Positions 45,196 through 62,871 of a DNA stretch of 64,000 nt are shown in pieces. Position numbers and translations under genes: made by a program. Each line of letters starts with the position of its first letter. Position 1 is the stretch's first letter. The notes below the pieces were generated by a model. It saw only the letters and a list, made by a program, of their open reading frames with translations, made no database searches and was not told where the DNA came from. This DNA is from an uncultured Candidatus Actinomarina sp. (GTDB taxonomy: Bacteria; Actinomycetota; Acidimicrobiia; Actinomarinales; Actinomarinaceae), in NCBI GenBank assembly GCA_902593795.1, contig CACJJR010000001.1:1-64000 (forward strand). The letters run 5' to 3'.

Positions 45196-45489
45196 ATGTA
45201 TTCAGTTGAGTGGTTATGTGGAGTGAAAAACTCACAACAAAGTTACAAAAATATTGATTTAAATGGAAACTTTATTTTTGAAAATGATCCAAACTTTACA
45301 GATATACAGCTTTGGGATAGACTCAACAGAACTCTTGTTGTAAATTCTTTTGATGAATGCGAACATTATGTTTTAGGAGGTTGGAGTTACACTCAAAACC
45401 TAAACATCGAACACTTTTCACAACTAGTAATTATTATTTTATTATCTTCGATGTTGGTGTTTAGAAGAAAGCACTTTTTCAAAAATTGA
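45196..45489 (+). CDS. Small membrane-anchored protein, partner of a Wzy-like polymerase (copy 1)
   Basis: A 97-residue protein I do not recognise from a named family. Residues 1-~68 form a compact domain with two conserved cysteines; residues ~76-92 are one hydrophobic helix, ending in a basic tail (RRKHFFKN). It is clearly homologous to the small protein at 58513: both share CG, then ID..NFIF..DPNFT.I.L.D, then NS..EC..YV.GGW, then a helix. Both are followed by a Wzy-like gene whose TTG start overlaps the TGA stop (TTGA). Predicted: tail-anchored, with the Cys domain on one side of the membrane, working with the polymerase. Function unknown. Confidence 0.8.
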   Translation: MYSVEWLCGVKNSQQSYKNIDLNGNFIFENDPNFTDIQLWDRLNRTLVVNSFDECEHYVLGGWSYTQNLNIEHFSQLVIIILLSSMLVFRRKHFFKN

Positions 45490-47045
45490 AAGTAAAATAT
45501 TTTAGAAATATATTACTCATAGTATTAATTACCATCGTGCCTTGGTTTAATTCAAATTTTTTCGATGAAGTGAAGCCAAATGAAAATACTATTTTTAATG
45601 ATACTTATTTTGAAATAAATCCTTGTAAGATTTCATTAGCTGAATTTATCTTTTTTGAAGAGAATCTGTCAAGATTTGAGTTTGTAAGTGATGTCTCTTC
45701 TCCAATTTATTGTTTTGGAAGAATATCTTCAGGAAATGAAGGTTCAACATTAAAGATTGGTAGTAACTTTTTAGTTAGTGCACTAATTATATTCTTCTTA
45801 TTAAGCACTCTAATTAGTAAAACCCCACTTTTAAATAAGCCTTTGGCTATAAATAATACCTATGTAAGTTCTCTTTTTTTCACCTCAATCTTTGTGATTG
45901 GGTTAATCCTTGCAGATAGTAAATATTACAATTCAACAATTTTTTATTTTTTAAATCAAAGTTTACTAATTAGTTTTGGATATTTAACTTTATTTATTTT
46001 TTTGATTTTAAATATCTTGGTTAATAATTATGAAATAAATAAAAGAGTATTAATTAACTATTTACCATTTTTATTTCTGTTTTCAGGATTAGTCTCAAAA
46101 AGCAATTTAAATATATGGTTGGTTATTTTTATTTATTTTGGGTTTCACCACATAAGAGAAAACAAAAAACCTCATTTTTTAAATATTTATTTATTTTTGA
46201 TTTTCTTTTGGGCAATTAATGCAAGTACAACTTTTGTTAAAATACCAACCACCTTTTTGGGATTTACAAGTACTTCTTACGATTTTTATAGTACGATTCT
46301 TTACTCAATATGTTTATATATTGCATTTTGTGGAGTAAAATTTCTCATAATTAATCAACTTAAATATTTTAAACTCTCAGAATTACTAAACAATTTTTAT
46401 ATCGTTATATTATGCAAACTTTTAATTCATTATCTTGCGAACCAATCTAACATTATAAAATTCATATTCGAATATCTGTTTGGAGAAATAAATACTAACA
46501 ATCTAAATTCGAATTCTTTTTTTGTTTTAAACAAAGAATTAATATTTCTAGTTTCAATTCTTTCTGTTTATCAATCTTTTATCAAAAAACATTTAAATAT
46601 TAAAACACTTGGAATTTTAATTTATTTTTTCTTAAATATTACAAACTACTTTAGTGAAATAAATAACAGTATTGATAACTACAAAGAATTCCTTATTTCC
46701 TATAACCCAACATTCTTAGAATTTATTATTGGTAGCGGGCCTTTAAATCTTAATCAATTTTTATCTGAAACCGGTTTTGATATAAATAATACAACAATTT
46801 CATCATTGAGCAGTATGATTATATTTTTTGGAATGTTAGGTTGTCTAATATTTTCAATTCTGTATATCTATTTCATAACTTCTAAAAAATATGGATTTTT
46901 TGAAAAATTTTTTGGTAGTTTATTGATTTTTAGCTTTTTAGAAGGTTCTGGTTTAAACAATATTTCATTCTTTGTAATATACTTAGTTCTTTTTTATATA
47001 ATGAAAGATAATTATTTATCGAAAAACTTTTTTTCTAATAATTAA
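45486..47045 (+). CDS. Wzy-like O-antigen/polysaccharide polymerase (copy 1)
   Basis: A 519-residue polytopic protein. After helix 1 comes an extracytoplasmic segment with two cysteines (CKISL and IYCFG), then about twelve helices. The C-terminal part FLEFIIGSGPLNLNQFL recalls the conserved G-G/P region after the large loop of Wzy proteins. It aligns with the 694-residue protein at 58809: both have NYxPxLFLF, xNLN and a similar helix order, but this copy is shorter. TTG start inside TTGA overlaps the small-protein stop, so the two are co-translated. Overlaps the next gene tail-to-tail by 30 bp. Polymerase role is inferred from plan and context. Confidence 0.65.
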   Translation: MKVKYFRNILLIVLITIVPWFNSNFFDEVKPNENTIFNDTYFEINPCKISLAEFIFFEENLSRFEFVSDVSSPIYCFGRISSGNEGSTLKIGSNFLVSALIIFFLLSTLISKTPLLNKPLAINNTYVSSLFFTSIFVIGLILADSKYYNSTIFYFLNQSLLISFGYLTLFIFLILNILVNNYEINKRVLINYLPFLFLFSGLVSKSNLNIWLVIFIYFGFHHIRENKKPHFLNIYLFLIFFWAINASTTFVKIPTTFLGFTSTSYDFYSTILYSICLYIAFCGVKFLIINQLKYFKLSELLNNFYIVILCKLLIHYLANQSNIIKFIFEYLFGEINTNNLNSNSFFVLNKELIFLVSILSVYQSFIKKHLNIKTLGILIYFFLNITNYFSEINNSIDNYKEFLISYNPTFLEFIIGSGPLNLNQFLSETGFDINNTTISSLSSMIIFFGMLGCLIFSILYIYFITSKKYGFFEKFFGSLLIFSFLEGSGLNNISFFVIYLVLFYIMKDNYLSKNFFSNN

Positions 47046-48695
47046 ATAAATACCTAGAACAATATTTAATAATATTATTGAATAGTTAAACAGATGGAAA
47101 TTTGGTTGTTTTTCAAAGTATTCAAAATTATCGTAAGAAATCAAATATGGGTTTAGGTCTCCTTTTTCAAAACAATAATCTTTTGAATAATCATATTCAA
47201 AATTAAAGTATTTAGTGTTCATCGTGCAAAAAATTGAATAAGAATTTAACTCGTTAATTTCGATGTTTAAATTGTCAGTGTAATTTTTAGGAAACCCGTA
47301 TACAAACATAAATAGAGGTAAAAATACAATTAACAAGAAGCTTCCTTTAATTTTATTACTTGAAATTTCAGCTATTAAGAAACTTACTCCAATAACAATT
47401 AAAAAAGAGTAATACAAAGGCTTTAGTGTGTCACCAATGCTTGGATCAAAGTTATTTTCTGGAAAACCAGTAATGATGTGGGTTGTAAGAATAAGAAATC
47501 CTATAAATGGAAGTGTAAAAAATTTTTTTCTATTTGTGTTAACTCTAAAAAAATATTTAATCAGCATAAGGTAAAAGAAAAATGAAATAAATAATGATGT
47601 TGTTTTTCTTAAATAACTGTTGTCTGTAATCTCTTGAACAAATATTGTTATTTGTTTTGTTTGTAAGTTTAATTTGGGTGGTTGCATTTCTTCAGAAACA
47701 CTATAGATTACAAAATCTCTTCTTCCTTTAAAAAAGTTCTGTGAATCGTCATCCCAATATAAATCAAAATAATCACCAAATGAATCTAATACTGTAATGT
47801 GAACTGCAGAAAAATTATGTCGATTTTTATAGGGAAGGTAAATGAGGGCTTTTGGATTAACTTTATATAATAAACTTAGACTGCCCTTATTATCATATTG
47901 AGCTTCTCTTTGTGAAATGCTTTCTATATCAAAAATATTTTTCTGATTTAATTGGCTATTTTCTTGAAACAATAAAACAAAGCAAACTAAAAGAGGGAAT
48001 AGAATTAAGAATATATTTTTTTTATCTCTTAACTGTAAAAATTTTGCAGTGTAATAAAGTATGAGCACAAAAATTGTCATTGCAAAAATTGAACCCTTTT
48101 GACTAAACAATATTAAAGACAATGATCCTGCTGCAAAGAGAGACCACTTATCGCGTGTTTGAAAAAATTTTTCTAAAAGAAAAAGTACCCATGGAAAAAG
48201 TGCAAAAGCTAAAATTTCTGGCTTAAAAACAATCCTTTGCGCAATGCTTATTGGCATAAAATTAATGAATAACAAAGCAATAATGATTTGGGATTTATTG
48301 TATTTAAATATTGAAAGAAGTTTCGCAATTCCAGCAGATCCAATTAAGAAAAAAATAAAGTTTACTTCTTGTATGCTTTTCCCTAAATAGACAAAAAAAT
48401 TATTGGAAGTTAAATTATAATTTTTAAAATAAAAATAAATAGATTGGATATCATAATAAGAGAATCCTTGTTCACTATCTGTATAGTCAATAATTCCTGC
48501 ATTATATTCTAAATATTTAAAGTACCTATTAAAGTCTGGGCTATCAGTAGTGTTGTAAAATAAAAAATTCATTTCTTTCACAAAAAAAAGTGAAAATATA
48601 TAAATTAATGTAGCAAAGGTATAAAATTTGTTTTGTTTTATATATGACAGAAGCATATGTCTATTATATGTGTTTGGATAATTGAACATTAACAT
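47016..48695 (-). CDS. Large polytopic membrane protein, possibly GT-C-type
   Basis: A 559-residue protein with about ten helices and long polar loops (about 45-105, 255-370, 475-530). NTTDSPDFNRYFKYLEY after helix 1 could be a GT-C acidic loop, and FKPEILAFALFPW is similar in place to the motif of such enzymes. The C-terminal loop has two cysteines (FCTMN, YCFEKG). No family recognised. Start uncertain: Met1, Met3 or Met14 could be used. It converges on the Wzy-like gene with a 30-bp overlap. Confidence 0.55.
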   Translation of the reverse strand: MLMFNYPNTYNRHMLLSYIKQNKFYTFATLIYIFSLFFVKEMNFLFYNTTDSPDFNRYFKYLEYNAGIIDYTDSEQGFSYYDIQSIYFYFKNYNLTSNNFFVYLGKSIQEVNFIFFLIGSAGIAKLLSIFKYNKSQIIIALLFINFMPISIAQRIVFKPEILAFALFPWVLFLLEKFFQTRDKWSLFAAGSLSLILFSQKGSIFAMTIFVLILYYTAKFLQLRDKKNIFLILFPLLVCFVLLFQENSQLNQKNIFDIESISQREAQYDNKGSLSLLYKVNPKALIYLPYKNRHNFSAVHITVLDSFGDYFDLYWDDDSQNFFKGRRDFVIYSVSEEMQPPKLNLQTKQITIFVQEITDNSYLRKTTSLFISFFFYLMLIKYFFRVNTNRKKFFTLPFIGFLILTTHIITGFPENNFDPSIGDTLKPLYYSFLIVIGVSFLIAEISSNKIKGSFLLIVFLPLFMFVYGFPKNYTDNLNIEINELNSYSIFCTMNTKYFNFEYDYSKDYCFEKGDLNPYLISYDNFEYFEKQPNFHLFNYSIILLNIVLGIYLIIRKKVFR

Positions 48696-48715
48696 TTTAT
48701 ATTAATATGAGAAAA

Positions 48716-49414
48716 TTATCTTAATTCTGATTTATATGTTTTATCTTGTGAACCTTGTTTGAAGATAGGAGGATAAAACCAACGGACTTTAAAATCTAAC
48801 TCATACATTTTGTAAGCCATTTCCCAGTCATATGGAAGAGTAAATTTTTTCATTGCTTCATAAAGTAAACCTGCCGATTCCTTTTTTATAACGTAAGCTT
48901 CTGCACAATTGCTTGCTGGATGAGACGGCTTTAAATACTTTAAATTAAAAAAGTCTTTTTTTGTTTTAGATTTTATAAAATCTTTACCCGATCCTCTACC
49001 TAAAAATACTATGTCCCAATCTGTTTTGCTAAATTTTTTAATAACACTATTTAAGTTCTTTTTTATTGGTTTTAAATTAATAACATCATCTTCAAGAATT
49101 AATCCATATTCTTTATCTGAATGAGATATATTATGTAAAGATTTTAGATGCTTGAAATAACACGAAATCTCAGCGTCAGAAAGAACCCTGTATTTCTCAT
49201 CATAAATTTTCCATAGTTTAGTAATTTTTCCTAAAAATTGGTTTTCGTCTTTTATATACTCATATTCTTCAGGAGCAGTATTCAAAACTTCTCTGTCGTA
49301 ATCCAATACATAATTAATTTCTAATTTTTCATCTCTAAATAGCTTATCAATAAATTCTTTCCTATCAGAAAGTTTTGAATAGTGAATAACTTGTATTAAG
49401 AGATTAGAAATCAA
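48716..49414 (-). CDS. GT25-family glycosyltransferase
   Basis: A 232-residue LPS-type GT25 enzyme. Landmarks: VIHYSKLSDRKEFIDKLF, SDAEISCYFKHLKSLHNI (the family's A-x-S-H/CY segment), YGLILEDDVI (acidic donor motif EDD near 103), WDIVFLGRGSG, NCAEAYVIKKESAG and a late YDWEMAY. This family transfers galactose, glucose or N-acetylhexosamine to outer-core or polysaccharide acceptors. The protein is within normal size. Lies 20 bp after the membrane protein gene at 47016-48695, probably in the same transcript or with its own promoter. Confidence 0.87.
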   Translation of the reverse strand: MISNLLIQVIHYSKLSDRKEFIDKLFRDEKLEINYVLDYDREVLNTAPEEYEYIKDENQFLGKITKLWKIYDEKYRVLSDAEISCYFKHLKSLHNISHSDKEYGLILEDDVINLKPIKKNLNSVIKKFSKTDWDIVFLGRGSGKDFIKSKTKKDFFNLKYLKPSHPASNCAEAYVIKKESAGLLYEAMKKFTLPYDWEMAYKMYELDFKVRWFYPPIFKQGSQDKTYKSELR

Positions 49415-49540
49415 AATATACCTTTATGTTTTAGAAACATAAGTTTGATTCTATGGTTAATAAATATTTATTTTTTACAAATAATTTTAAATCTAAAATA
49501 ATACATCAACTCTTTATTTTTGACATGTTATTTCTAGAAT

Positions 49541-51502
49541 TTAGTTTTTTTTATTAATTATCTCAACTATCTGGTCTCCAACTAATTTTGCACCGGTTTT
49601 TGTTAGGTGTTCAGTGTCATAGTAAAAAATTGATCCATCAAAAGCTCCTACACACTCTAAGGAAATAAAAGAATCACAGAATATTTCCTTTGGGTAAACT
49701 TTGTAAATATTTTCACTATTTAAACTATCGTAAATTTGATAGGTTAGTTTTATCTCTTTACTTTCTGTGAAGTATTCGACTGGCATTGAAACATTATCAT
49801 AAAAATCTAATTCCTTTTGAATAAACTGTTCTGGGATACTGAATGGGTGCTGTGGGACAGGGTAGATTAATATCAATTTATTATTATTCTGCAGGAATAT
49901 ATCTACTGTTGTTTCAAAATATTTTCTAAATTCAACCTCACCATGTTTTTTTATCTCCAACTCAGTATTAATAAAATAAATTACAGTTGAATTATTTATA
50001 TTTTTTAAATAACTGTTGAAACTTAGTAGATCATAACCACGTTCTTCACATTCTTTTGAAGCATTCATATTTTCAATATATTTAATACAGCCTGTTATGT
50101 CGAAATAATTGTATTGCTTTAAATCATTTGAAGTTGATAAAAACAAACTTAATACACCTGCATGAGAATCACCAAAATTATAAACTGAATTGTTTGAATT
50201 TCTATCAAATTCACAAATTCGTTCAATTTTTTTTCTTTCCCAGCAACTCTCGCCTTGGAGACTTAGGCTATTTGTGCGATTGTCTTGATATTGTAAAATA
50301 TCTTCTGACTGATCGCTATATCTAAACTTGTAACCATCATTACTTAAACCAATAGCCGCTATTGCTAGAATTAAAATTAAAGGTAAAAGAAGGGTGTTTG
50401 CTTTAGTTGATTTATTTAAAAATTTTTTCTCTACATATTTGTAATTTAAATTTGTGATTACAAATAAAAGTAATACATAGTAAGGCAAGTATTTTTGAAA
50501 AATTAATTCTGAAAAATAATTTGGGTTCTTTATGTTGCCTAATAAAAGTGTTTGTTTATTTGAATATATTCTTCCAAAAGCAAAGATTGGCTGATGAAGT
50601 AAATAGAGTGAAAAAGAAGTCAATCCAAGATTGTAAATTATTTTATTCTTTGAAAATCTTTCTATTAAAGAATTTTTATTATTTGAAAATATTATGAGCG
50701 CTGTACCAAGTGTTATTAATATTCTTGGTTCTATCTCCAATATATATTCATCATCAAATTTAAAATAACAATAGAAAATTATTAAAAATCCAATAAAATC
50801 TATGTATTTAATTCTTAGATTTTGACTAACTATACAAAGTATTACACCGGCAACAAGTTGCCATGCCCTAAAATGCAATAAATAAAATTTTACAAAAGAT
50901 GAACCTACATTTATATACAATGAAATAGTGAAAATTAATATAAAAAAAATAATTATCTTATCTTTAAAAAATTTGTACAAAATTAAAGACATAATCGGAA
51001 AGATAAGATAAAACTGTTCCTCAATACCTAAGCTCCATGTATGAAGAAAGGGCATTAAATCAGCTGGTTCAGAGTTATAAAAATCTAACTTTGAAAAGTA
51101 GACATTCGATAAGAAAAATAGTGTATAAATTATTGAGTTTAAATACTCTATTGTTGGTCTTGGCAGCAATAAAAAATATGCAAATGGAATTGTAATCACA
51201 ACTGTTGAAAGTACAGCAGGTAGAATTCTTCTTACTCTTCTTATGTAAAAACTTTTAAGTGAGAATTTATCTTGATTAAGATCTGAAAAAATAATATTTG
51301 AAATTAAATATCCAGAAATCACAAAAAAAATATCTACTCCTAAATATCCTCCTCCAAAGTATCTAATATCTAAGTGATAAAGAACAACTCCAACAACAGC
51401 AACAGCTCTGAGGCTATTTATATCATTTCTAAAATTAATTCTCTCAATTTTTTTTATGCTTAGAAGATTTTTTATAAAGTTAGTTAATTTGAGAATTTGC
51501 AT
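49541..51502 (-). CDS. OafA/YrhL-type O-acyltransferase with C-terminal SGNH domain
   Basis: A 653-residue protein. Residues ~25-370 are an acyltransferase-3 domain: NDINSLRAVAVVGVVLYHLD (catalytic His), GGYLGVDIFFVISGYLI and FYIRRVRRILPA, then HTWSLGIEEQFYL. Residues ~420-650 are an SGNH hydrolase-type domain with NFGDSHAG and, near the end, DTEHLTKTGA (Asp-His). Together they acetylate sugars on the outer face: the membrane part passes the acetyl group and the SGNH domain transfers it. Full length for the family. Decorates the polysaccharide; which sugar is not known. Confidence 0.92.
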   Translation of the reverse strand: MQILKLTNFIKNLLSIKKIERINFRNDINSLRAVAVVGVVLYHLDIRYFGGGYLGVDIFFVISGYLISNIIFSDLNQDKFSLKSFYIRRVRRILPAVLSTVVITIPFAYFLLLPRPTIEYLNSIIYTLFFLSNVYFSKLDFYNSEPADLMPFLHTWSLGIEEQFYLIFPIMSLILYKFFKDKIIIFFILIFTISLYINVGSSFVKFYLLHFRAWQLVAGVILCIVSQNLRIKYIDFIGFLIIFYCYFKFDDEYILEIEPRILITLGTALIIFSNNKNSLIERFSKNKIIYNLGLTSFSLYLLHQPIFAFGRIYSNKQTLLLGNIKNPNYFSELIFQKYLPYYVLLLFVITNLNYKYVEKKFLNKSTKANTLLLPLILILAIAAIGLSNDGYKFRYSDQSEDILQYQDNRTNSLSLQGESCWERKKIERICEFDRNSNNSVYNFGDSHAGVLSLFLSTSNDLKQYNYFDITGCIKYIENMNASKECEERGYDLLSFNSYLKNINNSTVIYFINTELEIKKHGEVEFRKYFETTVDIFLQNNNKLILIYPVPQHPFSIPEQFIQKELDFYDNVSMPVEYFTESKEIKLTYQIYDSLNSENIYKVYPKEIFCDSFISLECVGAFDGSIFYYDTEHLTKTGAKLVGDQIVEIINKKN

Positions 51503-51588
51503 GTTATAAGCTTAATAAAAATACTAAAAATATTTTCTATAAATTAAGAGGATTCCAAAATTTCGAGCAAGTGATACTTTAGCAAGAA

Positions 51589-52329
51589 TTAAGTATTTTT
51601 AGTATTATCTACAAACGATTTGTTTTTAAATAATACATTACCGCCATCTTCCCATCTGATATCTTCAAAATGAACCGTAAAACCGTTTTCAATCATAAAA
51701 TTTTTGTAATCTTTGTAAAGTATCTGGTTCTCATAATTTTCTAAAACCGAAACTTCTGAGTAAATAAATTCTATTTTAGATAGATTGGTGCTCGCCATTA
51801 ACACATCGGGCTCAACACCTTGTAAATCTAACCACAGTAAATTAATTGATGTAATTTCATTCATTTTTAAGAAAGTATCCAATTTAACAACCTCAACAGT
51901 TTCTTTATCATTGAACTTAATACCAGGATGTATTTCAAGATGTAATTTAGGCTCAAGAAGTGATGAAGATCCCCATGGTTGATCTTCATTTTCAGCTAAA
52001 TTTAAATCTAATTTTCCATCGATGTCAGAAAAGGCTAATTTAAATAGTTTAATATTTTCAAATTGTTTTACTTTTTTAGAAGTTACTTCATATAAGCTTG
52101 ACATTGGTTCAAGAGAGTATATTTTTGATTTTGGGAAGTTTTCACCAAAAAAGACGGTATCGTTGCCATTAGCTGCACCAGCTTCAACAATTACTGAATT
52201 TTTTTCTAAATTTTTTAATAAAAAAATATCAATATCTACTGGAAAATTAAGGTTTTTTTGTACATATTTTTTTAGGAAAATATACAAATTAATGTTATTT
52301 TTATATACAAAATTTTTTATTTTATCCAT
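51589..52329 (-). CDS. FkbM-family methyltransferase
   Basis: A 246-residue SAM-dependent methyltransferase. VIVEAGAANGNDT is the SAM loop, IYSLEPMSSLYE the acidic strand end, and LLWLDLQGVEPDVLM the conserved LDLQG segment. It shares SSSxLEPxxHL and PxIxFNxxE with the FkbM protein at 17354, so the pair probably arose by duplication or parallel acquisition. It is not in an obvious operon: 134 bp separate it from the SDR gene at 52463. Confidence 0.85.
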   Translation of the reverse strand: MDKIKNFVYKNNINLYIFLKKYVQKNLNFPVDIDIFLLKNLEKNSVIVEAGAANGNDTVFFGENFPKSKIYSLEPMSSLYEVTSKKVKQFENIKLFKLAFSDIDGKLDLNLAENEDQPWGSSSLLEPKLHLEIHPGIKFNDKETVEVVKLDTFLKMNEITSINLLWLDLQGVEPDVLMASTNLSKIEFIYSEVSVLENYENQILYKDYKNFMIENGFTVHFEDIRWEDGGNVLFKNKSFVDNTKNT

Positions 52330-52462
52330 ATAAATTTATGAGGCAGGATTAAACTGCTAACTCCCTATTTTTGATTATTGCAAACTTTAACCTTTATTAT
52401 TCTACCTCATTCAGTTTAAACATACTCTTGCTGCACAAAGTCAAAATGTGCAAAGAAATTAG

Positions 52463-53314
52463 CTATTTGTTTATAATTTTTGCCAGGTATGAAGAAAGTT
52501 CATATTTGATAAATTCATTATTGTTGAGAAGAGTTTTATATTGAGTATCGTTGCCAACATACTTTCTGGCAACTTGATTAGATTTAAAATTTTCCACAAT
52601 ATCTTTTTCTTCAAGATTTAAACAATTAGCAACCTGTAAGCTAAAGTCTTTTAATGAAATACTTACATCTACTGCATCAAAAAAATATTGTAATCCTTTT
52701 TTCGAGTCAAAGAGTAAATCAATAACTACATAAACTAAATGATCTAAAAAACAAATAGAGTGCGTATCATCCGTTTCGCTCTCTATTATTATTTTATTAA
52801 ATTCAATACCTTGAGTTATTAATGAAATAAAATTACTCTTTGGTGGCTGAGAACTGATTGGACCAAGCAATGAAAATATGCGTGAGATAACTAATGTAAA
52901 ATTATACTGATTAGATAGCTCAGTAAATTGTTTCTCCTCTTTCTTCTTTTGCTCTTTATATATTGAATAAATTTCTGAATCTTTATGATTTTCTATATTT
53001 ACTAATCCAGATGAAGGGTAATACAAACTTTGTATATTATTATTCTTGATAAATTCTATAGTATCCTTCAACAAAGCATCAAGTTTTTGCTGATAGCTTT
53101 CAGGGGTTTTGATTTTATTTGATTGTGGAAGTACAAAAGCATTATGTATTAAATGAATGTCATTATCTATTGTATTTATTTTTTTCCAATCATTTTGAGA
53201 TGAAATAGTAATAATTTTTTTATTGGTATTATATTTATTTTTTAAAATTCTTATAAAATTTTGTGATAACCAACCAGATGAACCGGTAATTACAATTGTT
53301 TCTTTTTTACTCAC
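52463..53314 (-). CDS. NAD-dependent epimerase/dehydratase (extended SDR)
   Basis: A 283-residue SDR with VITGSSGWLSQNFI at the nucleotide loop and YYPSSGLVN for the catalytic serine; the Tyr/Lys pair is YSIYKEQKK. The C-terminal substrate part is short and divergent, with SICFLDHLVYVVIDLL where epimerases have a DVxDxA motif. Likely acts on a nucleotide sugar, as a reductase or epimerase. Together with 12510 and 39578 it is one of several SDRs in the locus whose substrates are unassigned. Confidence 0.75.
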   Translation of the reverse strand: MSKKETIVITGSSGWLSQNFIRILKNKYNTNKKIITISSQNDWKKINTIDNDIHLIHNAFVLPQSNKIKTPESYQQKLDALLKDTIEFIKNNNIQSLYYPSSGLVNIENHKDSEIYSIYKEQKKKEEKQFTELSNQYNFTLVISRIFSLLGPISSQPPKSNFISLITQGIEFNKIIIESETDDTHSICFLDHLVYVVIDLLFDSKKGLQYFFDAVDVSISLKDFSLQVANCLNLEEKDIVENFKSNQVARKYVGNDTQYKTLLNNNEFIKYELSSYLAKIINK

Positions 53315-53378
53315 TTTAATGTGAATTATATATAGCTAATAAAGATTATATATTTTTTATATTATGAGTTTGAAAAAA

Positions 53379-55289
53379 CTAATCTTTTATAAATATTGGA
53401 ATAGAATTATTGTTCCTAATGGGATACTCAACTCTACTATAGTCGTAAATAACTTCACAAAATGAATACAACTCTTCGTTGCAAAGAATTATATCTGGCT
53501 CTTTTAACATTAACTCGTTAAATATCTCTTCCTTTGTTGTGTTTTCTGGGTTGTCAAATAGGTTTACTTCGTTCAAAAACATTAAAACTGGATGGTTAAC
53601 ATATGAAAGGTTTGGAACGTCTAAATAAAATAAGATCAGGTGGTGATCTAATGCAAGAACCTTTGAATTAGTATCAACATCATAATTTACCTGTAAATCT
53701 TTTGCGATTTGCTGAAGTAAATACTCCTCTTCTATAATTTCAAAGTTTTGTATATTTTCTGACGATTTTTCATAAGAGGAGTGGAAAATAGAAAGGCTTG
53801 CTATAACAACAAGAGGTAGTAGGAATTTTGCTACTATATTTTCTTGTATATTGATAATGTATAAACAGAATAAATAAATCAGGAAGTTATATCTTCCTGG
53901 TGCCTGACCAACGATAAATAGATGTATCAGCCCTCCAACAAAAAAATAAGGAAGTGACGACAAAGCATTTGGTAAAGAATCTTTTCTAAAACTATTTAAA
54001 GATAGGTACACAATGAAACCTGCAATAAAAAGTGCTACCCCTGAAAGAAAGAGGTTGTAACTGTAAAGTCCTTTAAATGGGTCGATAAACCCATTTAAAA
54101 AATTAGATACCCTTTCTCCAAATGAAATACTGGTATAACCTAATGGAATTTGTATGTTGGCAGTAAGGTAGACCCTTAGTAAGTCATTAATAAAGTAAAT
54201 CAAGAGAAAAAATAAATGAGGTATTGAAAACCCAGTAAAAAATCGAGTTAATTGGTTTTTATATTTTGAATAAATATAAAAAGTAGCAGCTATAAAAAAC
54301 AGAACTGTTCCATGATTGGTGAGGGTTGCTAGGGAGAAAAGAATTCCTAGAAAAAGAAAGTTTGTATTTTGTTTTTTTTCTAATAGGTAAATGGCTAGAG
54401 CAATAGGTAGTAAAGAAAAGAGTTCTGAAACTCAGGTAGCACCATAATATTCAATAGACAAAATGGAGGTGTAAACCAACAGTGCAGCAATTATATTTGC
54501 TTTCTTTCCTTTTTGCTTTAGAGTGCTGAACATAAGAATTGTTAAAACTAATAAAGGAATGTCTTGTAAAAATTTCACAATTCGATAATCGCCGTTGCTT
54601 AAAAGATCAATAACACTGTAAATATACATAAGTAGTACACCTTTGGTTTCATATTGAGACTCATAAGGTAAATTCCCTCTATTGATATCTTGACCCATAC
54701 TGAGGTATGCTGAAATGTCCCAGGAGATAATTTCTTTACTTAAATAAACCTGTTGAAGAAAAAAAGAAAACAGTAAGACACCTAACAAAACAAAATTCAT
54801 ATTGACTTTTTCTATAATTTCTAGATCTGTAATTAGAGGTACCAAAAAGATGCCAGCTAGGATAAAGATCTCAGCAATAGAATTTTCTGCAACCAAGAAT
54901 ATATATAGATTTAAAGTTACTAAAAAGAATAAAAGTAGAGAGAGTCTCTCTTTTCTAAAAAAGTAAAAAATAAAATTTATGAGAGAGAGGACTACTAATG
55001 CATAAGAGTAAATTACTTTATTCTGAGCAAGAGCAATAGAAGTAACTCCCTTATTAATAGAAGCTCCATAAATGGTATTAAGACATTGAATATTTTCAAA
55101 CTCAGGAATAAGTGGAATATCAACAAAAGAGATTATTAGTGATTCTGAATTAAGAAGCGTGGTATCAATTTTTTCAACAACAGAACAGGTATTAACTTTT
55201 GATAAAGAATTTTTTGAAATAGCATTATTAAGAAGAAAAACCTGAAAAAATAAAGTAAGTAAGAAAACTAAAAATAATACTTTCTTCAC
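53379..55289 (-). pseudogene. GT-C-type membrane glycosyltransferase gene interrupted by one in-frame TGA
   Basis: Two open stretches (55289-54432 and 54203-53379) lie in the same frame, and the sequence between them is also open: only one TGA (54434-54432, minus strand) interrupts a frame of about 636 codons. Upstream it ends EYYGAT; downstream it continues VSELFSLLPIALAIYLL, LATLTNHGTVLFFI and on to INDLLRVYLT with no break. The whole is a GT-C-like protein with an extracytoplasmic loop after helix 1 (WDISAYLSMGQDINRG, acidic motif) and a C-terminal soluble domain. Its first loop (two Cys, PEFENIQCL) resembles the GT-C at 5499. Either a recent nonsense mutation, sequencing error, or readthrough; TGA is a normal stop elsewhere here. 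Confidence 0.8.
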
Positions 55290-55415
55290 ATTTTGATATT
55301 ACACAGTTGTTATAAAGGACAAAAGCAAAAATCTCGAGTTTATTTAGTTTTAGGTATGTCTATGAGACAGTTTTGTAATTTAAGAATGCTAGTAAGAAAA
55401 AACTCTTGTAGCGAC

Positions 55416-55491
55416 TGGTGGCCAGAGGCAGAATCGAACTGCCGACCCCTTGTTTTTCAGACAAGTGCTCTACCGACTGAGCTATCTGGCC
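55416..55491 (-). tRNA. tRNA-Phe (anticodon GAA)
   Basis: Minus-strand cloverleaf: acceptor GGCCAGA/TCTGGCC, D-arm GCTC/GAGC, anticodon stem CTTGT/ACAAG around CTGAAAA (anticodon GAA), T-arm with GTTCGATTC, discriminator A, and an encoded CCA (55416-55418). It is the only tRNA here with encoded CCA. It lies 5 bp from tRNA-Asp, so the two are one transcription unit. Confidence 0.95.
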
Positions 55492-55496
55492 AAAAG

Positions 55497-55571
55497 CGGG
55501 GACGACGGGATTCGAACCCGCGACCTCCTGCGTGACAGGCAGGCGTGAACTCCAGACTTCACCACGCCCCC
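55497..55571 (-). tRNA. tRNA-Asp (anticodon GTC)
   Basis: Minus-strand cloverleaf: acceptor GGGGGCG/CGTCCCC with one G-U pair, anticodon stem CCTGC/GCAGG around CTGTCAC (anticodon GTC), T-arm CGCGGGTTCGAATCCCG, discriminator G, CCA not encoded. Directly upstream of tRNA-Phe. The 127 bp from 55572 to the sugar-phosphate transferase gene hold AT-rich sequence with the promoters for both directions. Confidence 0.95.
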
Positions 55572-55698
55572 AAGTATTCAAAGTATAATTATAAATATTA
55601 ATTATGTATTTTCTTTTTTTGACAGATTAAAAAATTAAACAACAATATATAAAAATTTGTTTATATAACAAAATATTTAATTACAATTATGTCAAATA

Positions 55699-57135
55699 AT
55701 GAAAATATACAACTTATCAAAATACTTTTTACGATTTTTAGTTTTACAGACAACTATTACTGCTATAACCATTTGGTATTTTGATAATTATTTAATTGGT
55801 GATTATGCTGATGGATTTGTAAAAATTAAGGATAACCTTTTTGAAGATCGTAATAGGTTCTATCCTTTTGTAACAAACGATTTCATAAAAATTGATATAT
55901 ATTTAGCATTCTTCGTTTTTATATTTTTAATTATTCTCTATTTATCAAAGTATTATTCGTATGTAAATGATTTATCGTTTACGGTTAATAAAAATATTTT
56001 AGATGATTATATTCCAATTTATTTGATCTGGACTGCAAGTTTTCTAAGTTTTCTTCAACTATTCAGATTTGATGAAGTATCGAGATTTCACACTATTGTG
56101 TTAACTTTTATTGTTCCATTTATATTGGTAATCTTTAGAAACAGCGAGTTTGTTTCAAGTATTCTTGGGAGAAATCCTACAAAGGAAAATTTTATATGCT
56201 TTAATCTAAAGACTGATTCAGTTTTTAGAGAATTAAGAATTCTAACTTTCAGAAATGAGCTAGCGAATTTTACAAGTGAAATTGAAGACTTTAGTTTTTA
56301 TAAAAATACCATCGAAGGCTTTAATAAGGAAAACGAAATTAACATCTTGGTATTTGATTTTTCTGATTTAGAATTCATACCTGATGATTTTATAAAATAT
56401 TTAATTAATTTGAATAAGAAAATCTTAATTATTTCGAACCCTCAATTAACTTTTAGTACAAATTTAGTTTTTAGAACAAAGCGAATTTCAAATAAAAGTA
56501 TTTTTTACTTAAATAATGACATCCAATATGGATCTAATTATATTGCAAAAAGACTTCTGGATATTTTCTGCTTGATATTCTTCTCAATTATCTATTTACC
56601 AATTGCTATAGTTGCTTATTTTTATATCTCTATTTCTGATGGTAGGCCAGCATTAATCAAGCAGACTAGAGTTGGCTTGCACGGAAAAAATTTCAAAATG
56701 TATAAATTTAGAACTATGAAGACTGATTCTCACCTTGAAAGAAAAGGCCTTGAGGAACTAAATACTAATACTGGTCCACTTTTTAAAATTAAAAATGATC
56801 CAAGAATATTTAAAGGTGGTAATTTTTTAAGAAAATATAGCATTGATGAGATACCACAGCTATTAAATGTGTTAAAAGGAGAGATGTCAGTAGTGGGGCC
56901 TAGGCCTCTTTTTCCAGAAGATAATAAGCATTATGATGAAAATTACATCAGAAGACTAAACGTAATGCCAGGAATAACTGGTTTACTCCAGATTAATGAA
57001 CGTAATACAGGTGATTTTAAAATATGGTTTAAATATGATTTAGAATATATTGAAAATTGGAATTTGTTTTTAGACTTAAAAATTATATTATTGACTCCAA
57101 TTTCTATATTTAAATCAAAGGCAAGTGGAATTTAG
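55699..57135 (+). CDS. Polyprenyl-phosphate sugar-1-phosphate transferase (initiating enzyme, WbaP/WcaJ type)
   Basis: A 478-residue membrane enzyme that puts the first sugar phosphate on undecaprenyl phosphate. N-terminal half has several helices and a cytoplasmic domain; the last ~200 residues are the bacterial sugar transferase domain: KRLLDIFCLIFFSIIYLPIA, IKQTRVGLHGKNFKMYKFRT, NDPRIFKGGNFLRKYSIDE, IPQLLNVLKGEMSVVGPRPL and MPGITGLLQI. Full length for polyisoprenyl-phosphate hexose-1-phosphate transferases. It is framed by tRNA genes on the opposite strand (Asp upstream, Lys 7 bp after its stop). Only one initiating enzyme is present, so the locus likely makes one main polymer. Confidence 0.93.
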   Translation: MKIYNLSKYFLRFLVLQTTITAITIWYFDNYLIGDYADGFVKIKDNLFEDRNRFYPFVTNDFIKIDIYLAFFVFIFLIILYLSKYYSYVNDLSFTVNKNILDDYIPIYLIWTASFLSFLQLFRFDEVSRFHTIVLTFIVPFILVIFRNSEFVSSILGRNPTKENFICFNLKTDSVFRELRILTFRNELANFTSEIEDFSFYKNTIEGFNKENEINILVFDFSDLEFIPDDFIKYLINLNKKILIISNPQLTFSTNLVFRTKRISNKSIFYLNNDIQYGSNYIAKRLLDIFCLIFFSIIYLPIAIVAYFYISISDGRPALIKQTRVGLHGKNFKMYKFRTMKTDSHLERKGLEELNTNTGPLFKIKNDPRIFKGGNFLRKYSIDEIPQLLNVLKGEMSVVGPRPLFPEDNKHYDENYIRRLNVMPGITGLLQINERNTGDFKIWFKYDLEYIENWNLFLDLKIILLTPISIFKSKASGI

Positions 57136-57142
57136 CTTTTAG

Positions 57143-57215
57143 TGGGTCGGGTGGGAATCGAACCCACGACCTTGAGCTTAAAAGGCTCCTGCTCTGCCGA
57201 TTGAGCTACCGACCC
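57143..57215 (-). tRNA. tRNA-Lys (anticodon TTT)
   Basis: Minus-strand cloverleaf: acceptor GGGTCGG/CCGACCC, D-arm GCTC/GAGC, loop CTTTTAA with anticodon TTT, T-arm GTGGGTTCGATTCCCAC, discriminator A, CCA not encoded. The first pair of the anticodon stem is a G-A mismatch. It begins 7 bp after the initiating transferase gene, on the opposite strand. Confidence 0.94.
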
Positions 57216-57274
57216 AGTTAATCAATAACAAGAAACATTATAAACATTTCATTTCTATATAAGGAATGTAAAGC

Positions 57275-57586
57275 TTATTCTTCCTCTGTAGAAATAAAAT
57301 CTGTTTGTGTAGAAAACTTATTTTTTGTTTCACTTATTAAACTTTTGAGTTCCGTATTTATATCGCTAACAATCTCTTTTGTTTCTTTTTTTATCACTTC
57401 ATCTGTTACGGTAGATTCGACTGTTTGAATTATATTATTAATTAATTGAGAAGTATTTTCAATTGTATTTTTAAAGGTATCCTTTAAATCTTCAACTAAA
57501 TCTTCTTCGTCAATACGAGATTTAATTTTTTTTGCAACATTTGAAATATCATTTGATATTTCAACCCATTTTTGTTCATCATTCAT
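57275..57586 (-). CDS. Small acidic coiled-coil protein of unknown function
   Basis: A 103-residue hydrophilic protein with a heptad-like pattern over most of its length (VAKKIKSRIDEED, LKDTFKNTIENTSQLINNII, ETKEIVSDINTELKSLISET), so a helical coiled coil is likely. No cysteine, signal peptide or membrane segment. It lies directly after the MpaB/DUF2236 gene (57604), 17 bp away on the same strand, so they are probably co-transcribed. I do not recognise a family; the context is not obviously part of the sugar pathway. Confidence 0.65.
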   Translation of the reverse strand: MNDEQKWVEISNDISNVAKKIKSRIDEEDLVEDLKDTFKNTIENTSQLINNIIQTVESTVTDEVIKKETKEIVSDINTELKSLISETKNKFSTQTDFISTEEE

Positions 57587-57603
57587 ATTGCTTATTATAT
57601 TGC

Positions 57604-58446
57604 TTAGTAGTTTGCTTTGTCACTAAATCTCAAGTTAGGAGATTTAGTTATTCTTTGCTTTGCCCAACGAGCAGGAGCGATAAGTCGAAAAAATGGGGGC
57701 AAAAAAGGTCTTGTAATTTTAAGTAATAAAAGATTGAAGTTAACTAAGACATTTTTGTATTTTGAACTTCTAATTCCATAAATTTCTTTAAATTCTTTTG
57801 GTAAGGTATTAAATGCTGTAAACGCAATAAAAGGCCAAATTGGTTTGATATGTTTGGGTACTGGTCCTCCTCCAATAATTTCATAAACATCCATTGCAAC
57901 ATCTGTCTTTACTAAATAATTATTTTCTTGTGATTTTTCAGTTACCCACTGTTTCAATTCATCATGAGTTTTTGGAATTTGATTTCTGTCAACTAAAACT
58001 AATTCGGCTGCGAAGCAATTTTCTTCATGGTATTTATTTTTTTCTCTTTCTGTTAACTTTCCTACTGTTTTTTCATAAAAATAAATTGATGAGATCTGCA
58101 AACATGCATGCACCCACAAAAGTTGCTCATGATCTAAGGCATCATAGTATCCACCAGTTATTTCATCTTCTCCTTTAATTACCTCATGTAACTTATTAAT
58201 TCTGTGAGCGCTTTCATCAGCTTCAGCTTTGGTTCCAAATGTTACGGAATTTTGAAGTGAAAGTGTTCTGATTAATCTTTTCCAAGGATCTCTTTGATAA
58301 AAGGAAGTCTGCCTTGCTCCTGCTGCAATTAAAGGGTGGGCTGCATGCATTAAAAGAGCTCTTGCCCCACCAAATAATACTGTGATCTCTTTATTTACTT
58401 TCCACATCATAGATTTAGGGCCAAAATATCCAGGGTCTCCGCGCAT
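57604..58446 (-). CDS. MpaB/DUF2236-family protein (putative oxygenase)
   Basis: A 280-residue protein of the DUF2236 (oxygenase MpaB/latex-clearing-protein-related) family. Landmarks: DPGYFGPKSMMWKVNKE near the start, GGARALLMHAAHPLIAAGA, FYQRDPWKRLIRTL, DHEQLLWVHACL (His pair expected for heme) and PLPPFFRLIAPARWAKQR-like end. Some family members bind heme b and oxidise lipids or polymers, others have no known role. The family is rich in actinobacteria, which is the main taxonomic hint in this window. It interrupts the run of sugar genes, between tRNA-Lys and the second small protein/Wzy pair. Confidence 0.85.
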   Translation of the reverse strand: MRGDPGYFGPKSMMWKVNKEITVLFGGARALLMHAAHPLIAAGARQTSFYQRDPWKRLIRTLSLQNSVTFGTKAEADESAHRINKLHEVIKGEDEITGGYYDALDHEQLLWVHACLQISSIYFYEKTVGKLTEREKNKYHEENCFAAELVLVDRNQIPKTHDELKQWVTEKSQENNYLVKTDVAMDVYEIIGGGPVPKHIKPIWPFIAFTAFNTLPKEFKEIYGIRSSKYKNVLVNFNLLLLKITRPFLPPFFRLIAPARWAKQRITKSPNLRFSDKANY

Positions 58447-58512
58447 ATTTATATTTTAAACTGTTTAAAAGGTATAGCTAATTGAGTAAGTGTGAATATA
58501 ATTGGATTTCAT

Positions 58513-58812
58513 ATGAAAAGACAAATTGAATTAATTTGTGGTGCTTCAGAGTCAACTCCTGACTTTGAAGCAATTGATAACAGTTCGAATTTTATTTTTA
58601 CTCCAGATCCTAATTTTACTCCAATAAGACTCTTTGACTTAGATGGTAATGTAGTCTTTCTTAATTCGTGGATTGAATGTGCTTATTACGTAAGAGGTGG
58701 TTGGACTGATAATATATCAGATTTTTTTAATGGTGAGAAATTTTTATTTTTTTTAATCGCTGGACTGTTTATTGCTTTTAATTTATTCAAAGACAAGGTG
58801 TTCTCTCGTTGA
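58513..58812 (+). CDS. Small membrane-anchored protein, partner of a Wzy-like polymerase (copy 2)
   Basis: A 99-residue protein homologous to the one at 45196. Shared pattern: ICGAS at 8-12, ID..NFIF..DPNFT.I.L.D at about 21-43, then NSWIECAYYVRGGW; a single helix (about 80-94) and a basic tail (KDKVFSR) follow. The earlier in-frame GTG (58492) would add seven residues; ATG 58513 is preferred because it matches the length of copy 1 and has GGA 6 nt upstream. The next gene starts with TTG in TTGA at its stop. No known family recognised; inferred to assist or regulate the polymerase. Confidence 0.8.
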   Translation: MKRQIELICGASESTPDFEAIDNSSNFIFTPDPNFTPIRLFDLDGNVVFLNSWIECAYYVRGGWTDNISDFFNGEKFLFFLIAGLFIAFNLFKDKVFSR

Positions 58813-60893
58813 ATAAATTAAATAGCATTAATATATTTTGGAAAATTTTAATAATATTTGTAGCTTTAATCCTGATATTTGGATATTTTAGTAATAGTGA
58901 ATTAGAACCATACGCTTCAAAATCAGTTGATGGTTTTTCAGATTGGCTTAATTACTACCGTGAACTCAAATGCGAATTCTCTTTGTTTGAAATCACAAAG
59001 TCATATATATTTGAACATGAAATTACACTTAGAAATGAACCAAGTGGTGATATAGAGTGTTTTGGAAAAAATTTTTATATTGACTATATACGTGAACAAA
59101 AAGTAGAAGATGGCTTTGATAAATTTTCACCTAGCAAAGTTATTTTAAGAATCTCAACAAACTTACATTTAGACTTAATTTTCCAATCAGCAATTTGGTT
59201 AATTATTTTTTCATTTATACCAAAAAACAAATCAAATGAATTTAAGATAAACAGATGGACAATCTTTTTGTCTTTAGCTTTGCTGTATTTACATACATAT
59301 GGCGAAAAAGAATTTTATAAAACCTTAAGCCGTGATTTTTCTCATTTATTCTTTTTTAGAGAATATAACAACTCATTAGTATTCAGTAATTACTACCTTT
59401 ACACATATTTACTTTCAATCTTCATAATGTTTTATTTTTTAAAAAATATTCTTGAATCGAGAGCTTATAATTTAGTAAATTATTTCCCATATTTATTTTT
59501 ATTTTACGGTACTTTTGCCTCTCTAAATTTAAACTTCTTTGTAATTGTATTAAGTTTTTTAGGTATCAATAAACTTTTGGTAAGTAAGCCTAACTTTAAG
59601 TTTTCTATTTTTTATTTATTCTTTTTTATAATTTGGATGTTTAATTTGGAAAATATCGATTCAAATTTTGATGTTGATAAAATTAGAGGGTTTGCAAATA
59701 CATCACAAACTTATTTTTCTTTAATATTCTGGAGTTTAGTTTTTTATCTTGTTGCAATAGGTACGTATTATCTTGTTGAAATTTCTATAGATAGTATTGA
59801 TCTTAAATTGATAACAAATAATTTATTGATTACTTCATCTTTTTTAATTTTTTTTGGAATCTTATCTTCTCTAAATCAAGTATTTAATTTTTTAAGTTTC
59901 TATGTCTTCGGTTTAAACAAAACTGGAATGAACTCAATTACAGGAGTTGAAGGAAATGCTTGGAGAGGATTAGCTCCGAGCGCTGAAGGCATTGGTGAGT
60001 TTTATGCTTTTGTTATCTTGTTTTCAGTTATTTCGTTTATAGTTTCTAATTTTGATTTTAAAACTCACCATTACATAATGATTTTTATAACTCTATATGG
60101 CCTTTATAGGGCCAACAATGCTGCTGCAATAATTTCATTAACAATTCTTTTGATTATTACGATTATTCACAAAAATATATTAGATAAGAAGCTAAAAACA
60201 CTAGTTTATTTAATATTAATTGCAATATTGTTAATAGGAGCTTATTCCTTACTTAATAATTATTCTTTTGAGTTTCTTAGTGGAGCTATTATGTATGAAT
60301 CAGTACAAGCTTCCAATATTGATTATGAATTTAATCTAAATCAATATAACCTATCAGCCGCAGAAGAAGCAAACTATGCTTTTCTGTTAAACTTGCCAAA
60401 AGATCAAACAAACTTTTCTTCCTCTTTACAGTATTTGCTAAATTCTTATACATATGGAAATAAGATTCAAAATATACCAAGCGTTCTTTCATCAATAAGT
60501 GCCGCATCTTACTTTATTAATCGATCAGAAAAGTGGGGTATTTTTATTTCAAAATATAATCCTGATGTATATGAATTGCTTTTTGGCTATGGACCTAATC
60601 AATTCCCTGAATATTTTTTAGGACACAACAACATTTACCAAGATGGCCTTATTCTTCCACATTCTTCTATTCTCAGCTATTTATTATTCTTTGGAATAAT
60701 AGGCTTAGGAGTTTTGTTTGTAGTGGTTGGTAAATTTATTTTAGTTAACAAAGATAATTTTTATGGAATTATACTTTTAATGTTTTTTTTAATAAATTTT
60801 ATTAAAAGTGATTCACTTATATATTTTCCAAACCTTGTTTTAATTTCTATTTTATTTAATTTAATTAGATTCAGATTAATTTCTAAGGACTGA
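58809..60893 (+). CDS. Wzy-like polysaccharide polymerase (copy 2)
   Basis: A 694-residue polytopic protein, related to 45486-47045. After helix 1 it has an extracytoplasmic loop with two cysteines (KCEFSLFEI and IECFGKNF), then about thirteen helices; a large loop near 480-590 is followed by YELLFGYGPNQFPEYFLGHNN and LILPHSSILSYLLFFGIIGLG, which match the conserved end of Wzy/O-antigen polymerases (H-x-x-x-L, GxxG). It is longer than copy 1, chiefly in the loop. TTG start overlaps the small-protein stop by 4 nt. As it lies next to the initiating transferase it is probably the main polymerase. Confidence 0.75.
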   Translation: MNKLNSINIFWKILIIFVALILIFGYFSNSELEPYASKSVDGFSDWLNYYRELKCEFSLFEITKSYIFEHEITLRNEPSGDIECFGKNFYIDYIREQKVEDGFDKFSPSKVILRISTNLHLDLIFQSAIWLIIFSFIPKNKSNEFKINRWTIFLSLALLYLHTYGEKEFYKTLSRDFSHLFFFREYNNSLVFSNYYLYTYLLSIFIMFYFLKNILESRAYNLVNYFPYLFLFYGTFASLNLNFFVIVLSFLGINKLLVSKPNFKFSIFYLFFFIIWMFNLENIDSNFDVDKIRGFANTSQTYFSLIFWSLVFYLVAIGTYYLVEISIDSIDLKLITNNLLITSSFLIFFGILSSLNQVFNFLSFYVFGLNKTGMNSITGVEGNAWRGLAPSAEGIGEFYAFVILFSVISFIVSNFDFKTHHYIMIFITLYGLYRANNAAAIISLTILLIITIIHKNILDKKLKTLVYLILIAILLIGAYSLLNNYSFEFLSGAIMYESVQASNIDYEFNLNQYNLSAAEEANYAFLLNLPKDQTNFSSSLQYLLNSYTYGNKIQNIPSVLSSISAASYFINRSEKWGIFISKYNPDVYELLFGYGPNQFPEYFLGHNNIYQDGLILPHSSILSYLLFFGIIGLGVLFVVVGKFILVNKDNFYGIILLMFFLINFIKSDSLIYFPNLVLISILFNLIRFRLISKD

Positions 60894-60897
60894 AGAT

Positions 60898-62049
60898 ATG
60901 AATAAAAATCTTCATTATATTACCTTTCAATCATTTCCAATGTTTAGTGCAAATACAATAGTCACAATGAAAATGTTGAAATATTTTAAAAAAAAGGAGT
61001 ACGATGTTTCTCTAATTTTTCCTGGAAGAAATAAAGTTAAATCCTCAGAGGAAGAAATTCTAAAATTTTATGGAGTATCTGAGAAAATTAATATATACAG
61101 AACAAATTACTTACTTCCTTTTGGAAAAATTAATTTTTTTAATAAATCTAGTTTTAGAATAAGTCATTTTTTATGGTCAGTTTTCATTTGGTTAAAATAT
61201 AAATTTAATAATGTAGATTACAAAAATACTATTTTGCTTACAAGGTCAAGCTGGGTGCTTTATTTTTTTTCATTTAGTAAATATAAAATAGTTTTTGAAT
61301 GTCATAAATTTTCAAAGCTAACTAAATACATTTTAAAACTTTTAAGGAAAAAGTATAATTGCGGTTACACTTTTTCAAATGAATTATTAAAAAATTGTTT
61401 TGAACTAAGCAAGATACAAGAAAATAATACAATAATTGCTCCGTCAGCTTATGATGAGGACGAATTTAATAAAAAGGAACATATCAAAAATGAGAATGAA
61501 GTTATATTTGTTGGAAGATTTACACGATTTAATAAAGACAGAAACTTAGATTTTCTCATCGAAGCTTTTAGCAAAGAAGAACTCCAGACTTATAAACTTA
61601 AATTAATTGGTGGTCCAAAAAAAATAGCTGAGCAGTTGAGAAGTACAATAGAAGAAAAAAATGTAAACAACATTACTGTATTAGATTATATGCCACAAGC
61701 TCAGTTGATTCAAACACTATCAAAAAGTGAAATCGGTATTTTAATTAATTCAGCAGGAGACAGACACTCAAGAATGCATACATCACCCGTTAAATATTTT
61801 GAATATATAAGGGCTGGTCTTAAAGTTTTGGCAATTGACTTTGAATCACATAGAGCTTTACCTTACTCTAAACAAATTTTTTATTTTGATGAAGGAAATT
61901 TAACCAGTTTTATAAATGGATTGTCAACATTAAGTAAAAAAAATTCAATGAAATATTCAAATATCAACAAATATTCGTATGACAGCAAAGTTAATTCAAT
62001 AGATAATTTATTTGCACGCCTGGAGGGACTCGAACCCCCAACCCTCTGA
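60898..62049 (+). CDS. GT4-family glycosyltransferase ending inside tRNA-Arg (antisense)
   Basis: A 383-residue GT-B enzyme: ITFQSFPMFSANTIVTMKML at the start, VIFVGRFTRFNKDRNLDFLI, KLIGGPKKIAEQL, VLDYMPQAQLIQTL, and SRMHTSPVKYFEYIRAGLKV, which replaces the usual EGFG-x-LEA donor motif with a PxKxFEY one, as in several GT4 groups. The last ten residues (ARLEGLEPPTL) are translated from the complement of the tRNA-Arg gene; the stop lies within it. ATG 60898 follows the polymerase stop by 4 nt, so both share a transcript. Confidence 0.82.
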   Translation: MNKNLHYITFQSFPMFSANTIVTMKMLKYFKKKEYDVSLIFPGRNKVKSSEEEILKFYGVSEKINIYRTNYLLPFGKINFFNKSSFRISHFLWSVFIWLKYKFNNVDYKNTILLTRSSWVLYFFSFSKYKIVFECHKFSKLTKYILKLLRKKYNCGYTFSNELLKNCFELSKIQENNTIIAPSAYDEDEFNKKEHIKNENEVIFVGRFTRFNKDRNLDFLIEAFSKEELQTYKLKLIGGPKKIAEQLRSTIEEKNVNNITVLDYMPQAQLIQTLSKSEIGILINSAGDRHSRMHTSPVKYFEYIRAGLKVLAIDFESHRALPYSKQIFYFDEGNLTSFINGLSTLSKKNSMKYSNINKYSYDSKVNSIDNLFARLEGLEPPTL

Positions 62050-62136: not shown

Positions 62137-62871
62137 ATGAAAACTACTAAGGTACTTCAGACATACATTAGCGAGACAGATATAAGTGAAGTCTCAGATA
62201 AGTTGAATACTTCAACTGGAATTCAAGTAGCTATATGTAATGCAAACACTTTGGTTAGAAGCTCCAGAGACTCGGAAATTAGAAATTTAATCAATAACTT
62301 TACAATCAAGACGCCTGACGGATTTCCAGTGGCAAAAGCTCTTTCCTTCCTAACTAAAGAAAAATTTTCAAGAGTTGATGGCTACAAAGTATTTCTACAA
62401 ACAATTGAAGACGGTCTAGATAAAGCAAAAAAACATTATTTCTTTGGGAATAGTGAAGCAATAACTTCATTGATGATTGGTAAATTAAACAATCTCTATC
62501 CAGAGATAAAAATAACTGGTTACCTTTGTCCAGAGTTTATAAGTAGTGATGAACTTGTTGCAAAATACAAAGATGAGATTGAGGCTATTGATGCAGATAT
62601 TGTGTGGGTTTCACTTGGATTTCCAAAACAAGAAATATTCATCAATAATATATGCAATGAAGTTGAAACCTCTGCCAACTTTGTTGGAGTTGGAGCAGTC
62701 TTTGAATGGGTTGCCGGCACAAAAAAGAAAGCGCCTGAGTGGTTAGCCAACCTAGGATTAGAGTGGTTGTTGAGATTAACCCAGGATCCAAGAAGACTGT
62801 ATAAAAGATATTTAGTAGACAATACATTCTTTATACTTTACTTTTTGAGACAAGTGTTCTTTCGTAGATAA
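62137..62871 (+). CDS. GT26-family (WecG/TagA/CpsF) glycosyltransferase
   Basis: A 244-residue enzyme of the WecG/TagA/CpsF family, which adds the second sugar (ManNAcA, ManNAc or glucose, depending on member) to an undecaprenyl-linked sugar. Visible: CNANTLVRSSRD, TPDGFPVAKAL (conserved Asp region), YFFGNSEA, DIVWVSLGFPKQEIFI and GVGAVFEWVAGTKKKAPEWLANLGLEWLLRL, the family's signature end, with DPRRLYKRY. Full length. It lies after tRNA-Arg and before argS and, with the initiating transferase, probably makes the first disaccharide on the lipid carrier. Confidence 0.93.
   Translation: MKTTKVLQTYISETDISEVSDKLNTSTGIQVAICNANTLVRSSRDSEIRNLINNFTIKTPDGFPVAKALSFLTKEKFSRVDGYKVFLQTIEDGLDKAKKHYFFGNSEAITSLMIGKLNNLYPEIKITGYLCPEFISSDELVAKYKDEIEAIDADIVWVSLGFPKQEIFINNICNEVETSANFVGVGAVFEWVAGTKKKAPEWLANLGLEWLLRLTQDPRRLYKRYLVDNTFFILYFLRQVFFRR

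Follow-up and report, generated by a model that had tools for sequence, protein, structure and literature searches.

Wzx/Wzy-type assembly is a main route by which bacteria make their surface polysaccharides; its polymerase, Wzy, has Wzz as its known dedicated partner. In Shigella, cysteines in the N-terminal part of Wzy modulate its interaction with the co-polymerase (PMC12004945), and among GT-C enzymes EmbC carries a C-terminal carbohydrate-binding module (CBM; PMC3044687). For Ca. Actinomarinales, the passages of the literature devoted to fGI1 present it as a tRNA-rich envelope-polysaccharide glycotype island (PMC7771536), and those same passages contain no description of the domain or module reported below. 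The window analysed here, a stretch of 64,000 nucleotides, covers the envelope-glycan island of its Candidatus Actinomarina genome, and the related named records belong to uncultured Candidatus Actinomarina / OCS155. It resembles fGI1, as portrayed in those passages, in its lineage and as a tRNA-rich envelope-polysaccharide island, and appears to show features of fGI1, an identification made by resemblance and without coordinate alignment to the paper. Two adjoining membrane-protein ORFs on the minus strand beside tRNA-Phe/Asp (53379-54203 and 54432-55289) look like fragments of one disrupted gene or a cassette remnant.

Two modules with the same plan, a small gene followed by a Wzy-like gene, lie on the plus strand of the window. 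Copy 1 (45196-47045) consists of a 97-residue protein (45196-45489) with a predicted extracytoplasmic two-cysteine domain, a C-terminal TM helix and a basic tail, followed by a Wzy-like membrane protein of 519 residues (45486-47045). In copy 2 (58513-60893), a 99-residue protein of the same architecture (58513-58812) precedes a Wzy-like polymerase of 694 residues (58809-60893), in which all conserved motifs, a two-cysteine first loop and a large loop at residues ~484-620 are present. The 99 residues are counted from an ATG; an alternative GTG start lies at 58492 in the open frame. In both copies the polymerase begins with a TTG (45486 and 58809) inside a TTGA overlap that also contains the TGA stop of the small gene (45486-45489 and 58809-58812, plus strand). 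This layout had been described in the first-pass annotation, and the ORFs proved to be real. The small proteins share 38% identity over 93 residues (E=3e-20), and the proposed relationship between the two polymerases was borne out over ~200 residues (E=2e-10) and along an additional C-terminal stretch. Furthermore, the sequence motif ascribed to the small proteins is present, with C9, G10, D32, E55, C56 and Y59, numbered as in copy 2, invariant in 34 homologues, and the two-cysteine loop ascribed to the polymerases corresponds to C55 and C84, invariant in 22 polymerases. The small domain is present in exactly two strong copies in the window's own genome, namely those of these modules.

To ask how general the pairing is, we turned to 41-42 congeneric genomes, which are incomplete (the window's own genome is 89% complete). 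Stand-alone small genes number 23, in 21 of these genomes, and a Wzy-like gene lies directly 3' of every one of them. Conversely, a profile search recovered 23 close polymerases, every one accompanied by the small gene; the G035 member is split over two contig ends. The partnership between small protein and Wzy is therefore well supported, although distant Wzy-like proteins in four genomes occur without a small gene. The earlier claim that the partnership is obligatory holds for all 23 small genes and all 23 close polymerases, yet it is incomplete, as the domain is also found on non-Wzy proteins. The TTGA overlap is not universal either; the spacing between small gene and Wzy gene in the 23 modules lies between -14 and +8 nt, except for a single module at +56. 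The trees of the small proteins and the polymerases largely agree and have their main groups in common, which would indicate that the pair moves as a unit rather than that the two proteins are in contact, since physical linkage alone would give the same result. Pairs of small gene and Wzy gene were also seen on two contigs filed as Flavobacteriia MAGs (L036 and L042); their neighbours are similar to genes of the window, and the contigs are possibly misbinned.

The first-pass annotation had taken co-duplication of the two genes as an argument for their partnership. The trees do not bear this out: the two copies are ancient paralogues in two old clades, and a recent tandem duplication is rejected. 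Copy 2 belongs to clade A, with 12 members, 11 of which are arranged as PGT - MPAB (opposite strand) - small - Wzy, in most cases with GT1 - WecG next after Wzy. In the window, the conserved neighbours of the copy 2 module are the initiating enzyme, a polyprenyl-phosphate sugar-1-phosphate transferase (55699-57135, plus strand), the adjoining marker gene of the MPAB/Lcp-type oxygenase family (57604-58446, minus strand) and, downstream on the plus strand, a Group 1 glycosyltransferase (60898-62049) and a WecG/TagA/CpsF glycosyltransferase (62137-62871). Copy 1 falls in the second clade (clade B), where it pairs with a further module of G034, and only this genome and the window's own contain both module types. 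The copy 1 polymerase and its G034 counterpart, whose partner small proteins are 50% identical, have intact ORFs and are without the WRG..SAE.IGEF, NN.AA and PHSS blocks conserved in other members. Because these blocks are missing, the activity of the copy 1 polymerase appears doubtful.

In order to place the small protein relative to the membrane, we considered its charge pattern and its predicted structure. All 22 small proteins have an acidic domain and a basic tail behind the TM helix, and for this reason an N-out/C-in topology is predicted and well supported; a signal-like leader in L045, a fusion protein described below, is consistent with it. The earlier label "tail-anchored" is probably wrong, as this charge pattern predicts the opposite arrangement. 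An AF2 model of the copy 2 small protein is compact and confident (pLDDT 91, pTM 0.71), with one TM helix and a domain of ~70 residues modelled as two helices, a beta-hairpin and a further helix. A disulphide between the invariant cysteines of the C9/C56 type is plausible and probably forms. A search for VKOR in the window's own 89% complete genome did not find it. For the copy 2 polymerase, the AF2 model (pLDDT 84, pTM 0.87) has ~14 long helices and a long loop region at ~484-620, in keeping with the 10-14 helices and large extracytoplasmic loop of the Wzy family. A Foldseek comparison of this polymerase with the PDB gave no relevant match (best E=0.89). Sequence and fold searches of the PDB with the small domain found no relative and no match to a known CBM fold; ribosomal L24e-like matches (E>2) were set aside.

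The polymerases share with the Wzy/O-antigen polymerase-ligase family (Wzy_C, PF04932) a polytopic build and a large loop ahead of the last helices. They differ from it in that the small-partnered members fall below the curated cut-off, have no match to a PDB fold and are each accompanied by a dedicated small subunit, and in that the copy 1 polymerase is without the conserved motif block. The window polymerases have no Pfam match to Wzy_C at E<=10, and matches were obtained for four of 22 homologues, the best at 4.4e-6 and 27 bits against a cut-off of 31.7. In contrast, the distant Wzy-like relatives in four genomes lie above the Pfam cut-off, and Wzy_C is present in 34 of 41 genomes. The assignment of the small-partnered polymerases to Wzy is based on profile hits and motifs, and their polymerase activity is putative. 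The window itself contains a further Wzy_C-family gene (23859-25223, minus strand; 45.6 bits, above the Pfam cut-off) with no small-domain partner upstream.

With the Wzz co-polymerases (PF02706) the small protein would have in common that it is an extracytoplasmic membrane partner of Wzy. The first reading had set it apart from Wzz-type regulators, and rightly so: it has one TM helix where Wzz has two, its domain spans ~70 residues, it has no match to PF02706 or any other sequence match to Wzz, and Wzz was found in none of the 41 genomes. Searches of Pfam, NCBIfam and PHROGs gave no assignment, and none of the IMG/VR and phage records searched contained the domain. Across 395 genomes of the class, strong homologues occur only in this genus, and outside it there were only weak partial matches (E 0.007-0.012); matches to ORFs of 194 and 374 residues were judged to be due to chance. 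No Wzy partner of this type was found in the open-access literature, subscription papers lying outside the scope of that search.

The view of the small protein as a dedicated Wzy accessory turned out to be too narrow, because three families of unrelated membrane proteins, among them a GT-C/PMT_2-like one, also carry the domain as a fusion. It forms the N-terminus of a membrane family of 564-604 residues (L046-L048) and also that of L045 (605 residues; ORF 6606-8423), where a signal-peptide/lipobox-like leader precedes it; L045 and L046-L048 share nothing else, and the membrane protein part of L045 is unrelated to the others. In a GT-C-like family (L049-L055), the domain sits at the C-terminus, ahead of the last TM helix. 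Within this family, L056 passes the cut-off of Pfam PMT_2 (PF13231; 7.1e-8), and other members give weaker matches below it. The window contains an orthologue that is convergent with copy 1 (47016-48695, minus strand) and has lost the domain; it gave no PMT_2 match in the Pfam search and is homologous to L056. In the seven genomes of this family that have no small gene, the GT-C-fused domain is intact throughout, with 59-81 bits in six copies, the seventh (G018) being a contig-end fragment outside that set. Where a small gene and the GT-C gene occur together, in 12 genomes, the fused domain is in every case absent or decayed (<=21 bits). In this genus, the domain is carried either by the GT-C enzyme or as a separate subunit beside Wzy, and the two states are mutually exclusive. 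The exact probability of the 7 versus 12 split is 1/50,388, uncorrected. The number of independent events behind this exclusivity is probably small: no fewer than three changes are required on a neighbour-gene tree, although its well-supported branches allow one.

Beyond these fusions, similarity over a core of ~40 residues extends to parts of a PG_binding/DUF3048 protein, which is secreted and also found in the window's own genome (hhalign probability 93%), and to repeats in Thr-rich surface proteins (hhalign probability 94%), both values being optimistic because the segments were chosen from search hits; a relationship to either group is only probable. The protein of the own genome (L118; ORF 9967-11712 on C2) and its orthologues are secreted proteins of the PG_binding_1 plus DUF3048 type with a probable divergent domain core, the Pfam domains having been assigned on the orthologue L058. 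The Thr-rich proteins L126-L129 (from G028, G024, G040 and G034) are large, with Thr-rich linkers and two copies of CNDEDFKPYTLYDSDGNANTV..C.NEQDAL..GY, and L126 has an IF2_N N-terminus ahead of a TM helix.

To rationalise these observations, we tentatively favour, at somewhat less than an even chance, a recognition or docking module that binds the nascent glycan or the acceptor, in trans to Wzy and in cis to the GT-C enzyme. The small protein would be a lineage-specific accessory subunit, its compact extracytoplasmic domain anchored N-out by the C-terminal TM helix, and would be made by coupled translation just before the Wzy-like polymerase. It would probably pack against the N-terminal helix and the two-cysteine first outer loop of the polymerase, a loop put forward as a docking site purely by analogy, and may hold or recognise the nascent glycan or acceptor during polymerisation as a small binding module; other surface-glycan membrane enzymes would receive the same domain in cis. 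We infer the contact with the polymerase, the disulphide and the glycan binding alike. The CBM of the EmbC-type GT-C arabinosyltransferase (PMC3044687) is likewise an accessory extracytoplasmic domain on a GT-C-type envelope glycosyltransferase, but it differs in size and has no fold or sequence match to the small domain, which also exists as a separate, Wzy-linked protein and whose sugar binding is putative. The support that this analogy may lend to glycan binding is weak, because no solved fold resembles the domain. The main rival is a protein-docking adaptor, which would bind a partner protein or scaffold shared by all and so gather Wzy, GT-C enzymes and wall proteins in a single complex for envelope assembly, with no sugar contact. 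A small, TM-linked domain shared by a number of unrelated enzymes, and probably also by secreted wall proteins, would suit such an adaptor; we nevertheless consider it rather unlikely, given that the analysis turned up no common partner and that it does not obviously predict the exclusivity between GT-C and stand-alone forms.

Of the roles proposed at first pass, an acceptor-recognition subunit comes close to the recognition or docking module, and we prefer the latter to a pure chain-length regulator or a Wzy chaperone because the domain is present on non-Wzy enzymes. Chain-length control keeps a place among the candidates because the genus has no Wzz (0/41 genomes, with Wzy_C in 34), and the strict pairing with Wzy would suit a protein that determines the chain length of the product as a co-polymerase or processivity factor; with a single TM helix, a ~70-residue domain unlike Wzz and fusions to GT-C and other membrane proteins, such a substitute is distinctly unlikely. 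It is more improbable still that the small protein serves mainly, in trans, the GT-C orthologue that has lost its own domain, its adjacency to Wzy being a matter of cassette organisation. The GT-C copy does lose its domain exactly where the small gene is present, and copy-1-type modules are often convergent with that GT-C gene, but all small genes overlap or abut Wzy and none GT-C, and nine of the 21 genomes with a small gene are without such a GT-C gene (these genomes being incomplete). An assembly chaperone that merely aids insertion or stability of the polymerase would be consistent with translation immediately ahead of Wzy, with overlap in most cases; permanent fusions and domain-level conservation fit a functional domain better, making a chaperone highly improbable. 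Against the recognition module itself stand the copy 1 small protein, intact though its partner polymerase lost the conserved block, the few evolutionary events from which the GT-C/stand-alone exclusivity may stem, and the distant Wzy-like proteins in four genomes that manage without a small gene.

Wzy-dependent assembly is already known, and we rate the undescribed accessory domain as what is new here. A bolder proposal, which we regard as possible but doubtful, is that it represents a new class of polymerase co-factor, a portable extracytoplasmic domain that controls surface-glycan polymerisation in a lineage without Wzz and that, with the exchange of glycotypes, passes between a GT-C enzyme (in cis) and a separate subunit of Wzy (in trans). 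In this marine lineage, which is abundant and streamlined and has no Wzz, Wzy is paired with a different obligate gene partner, whose undescribed domain is met again on other glycan enzymes. The module offers a testable handle on acceptor choice or length control by the polymerase, and on the rebuilding of glycotype islands from interchangeable parts.
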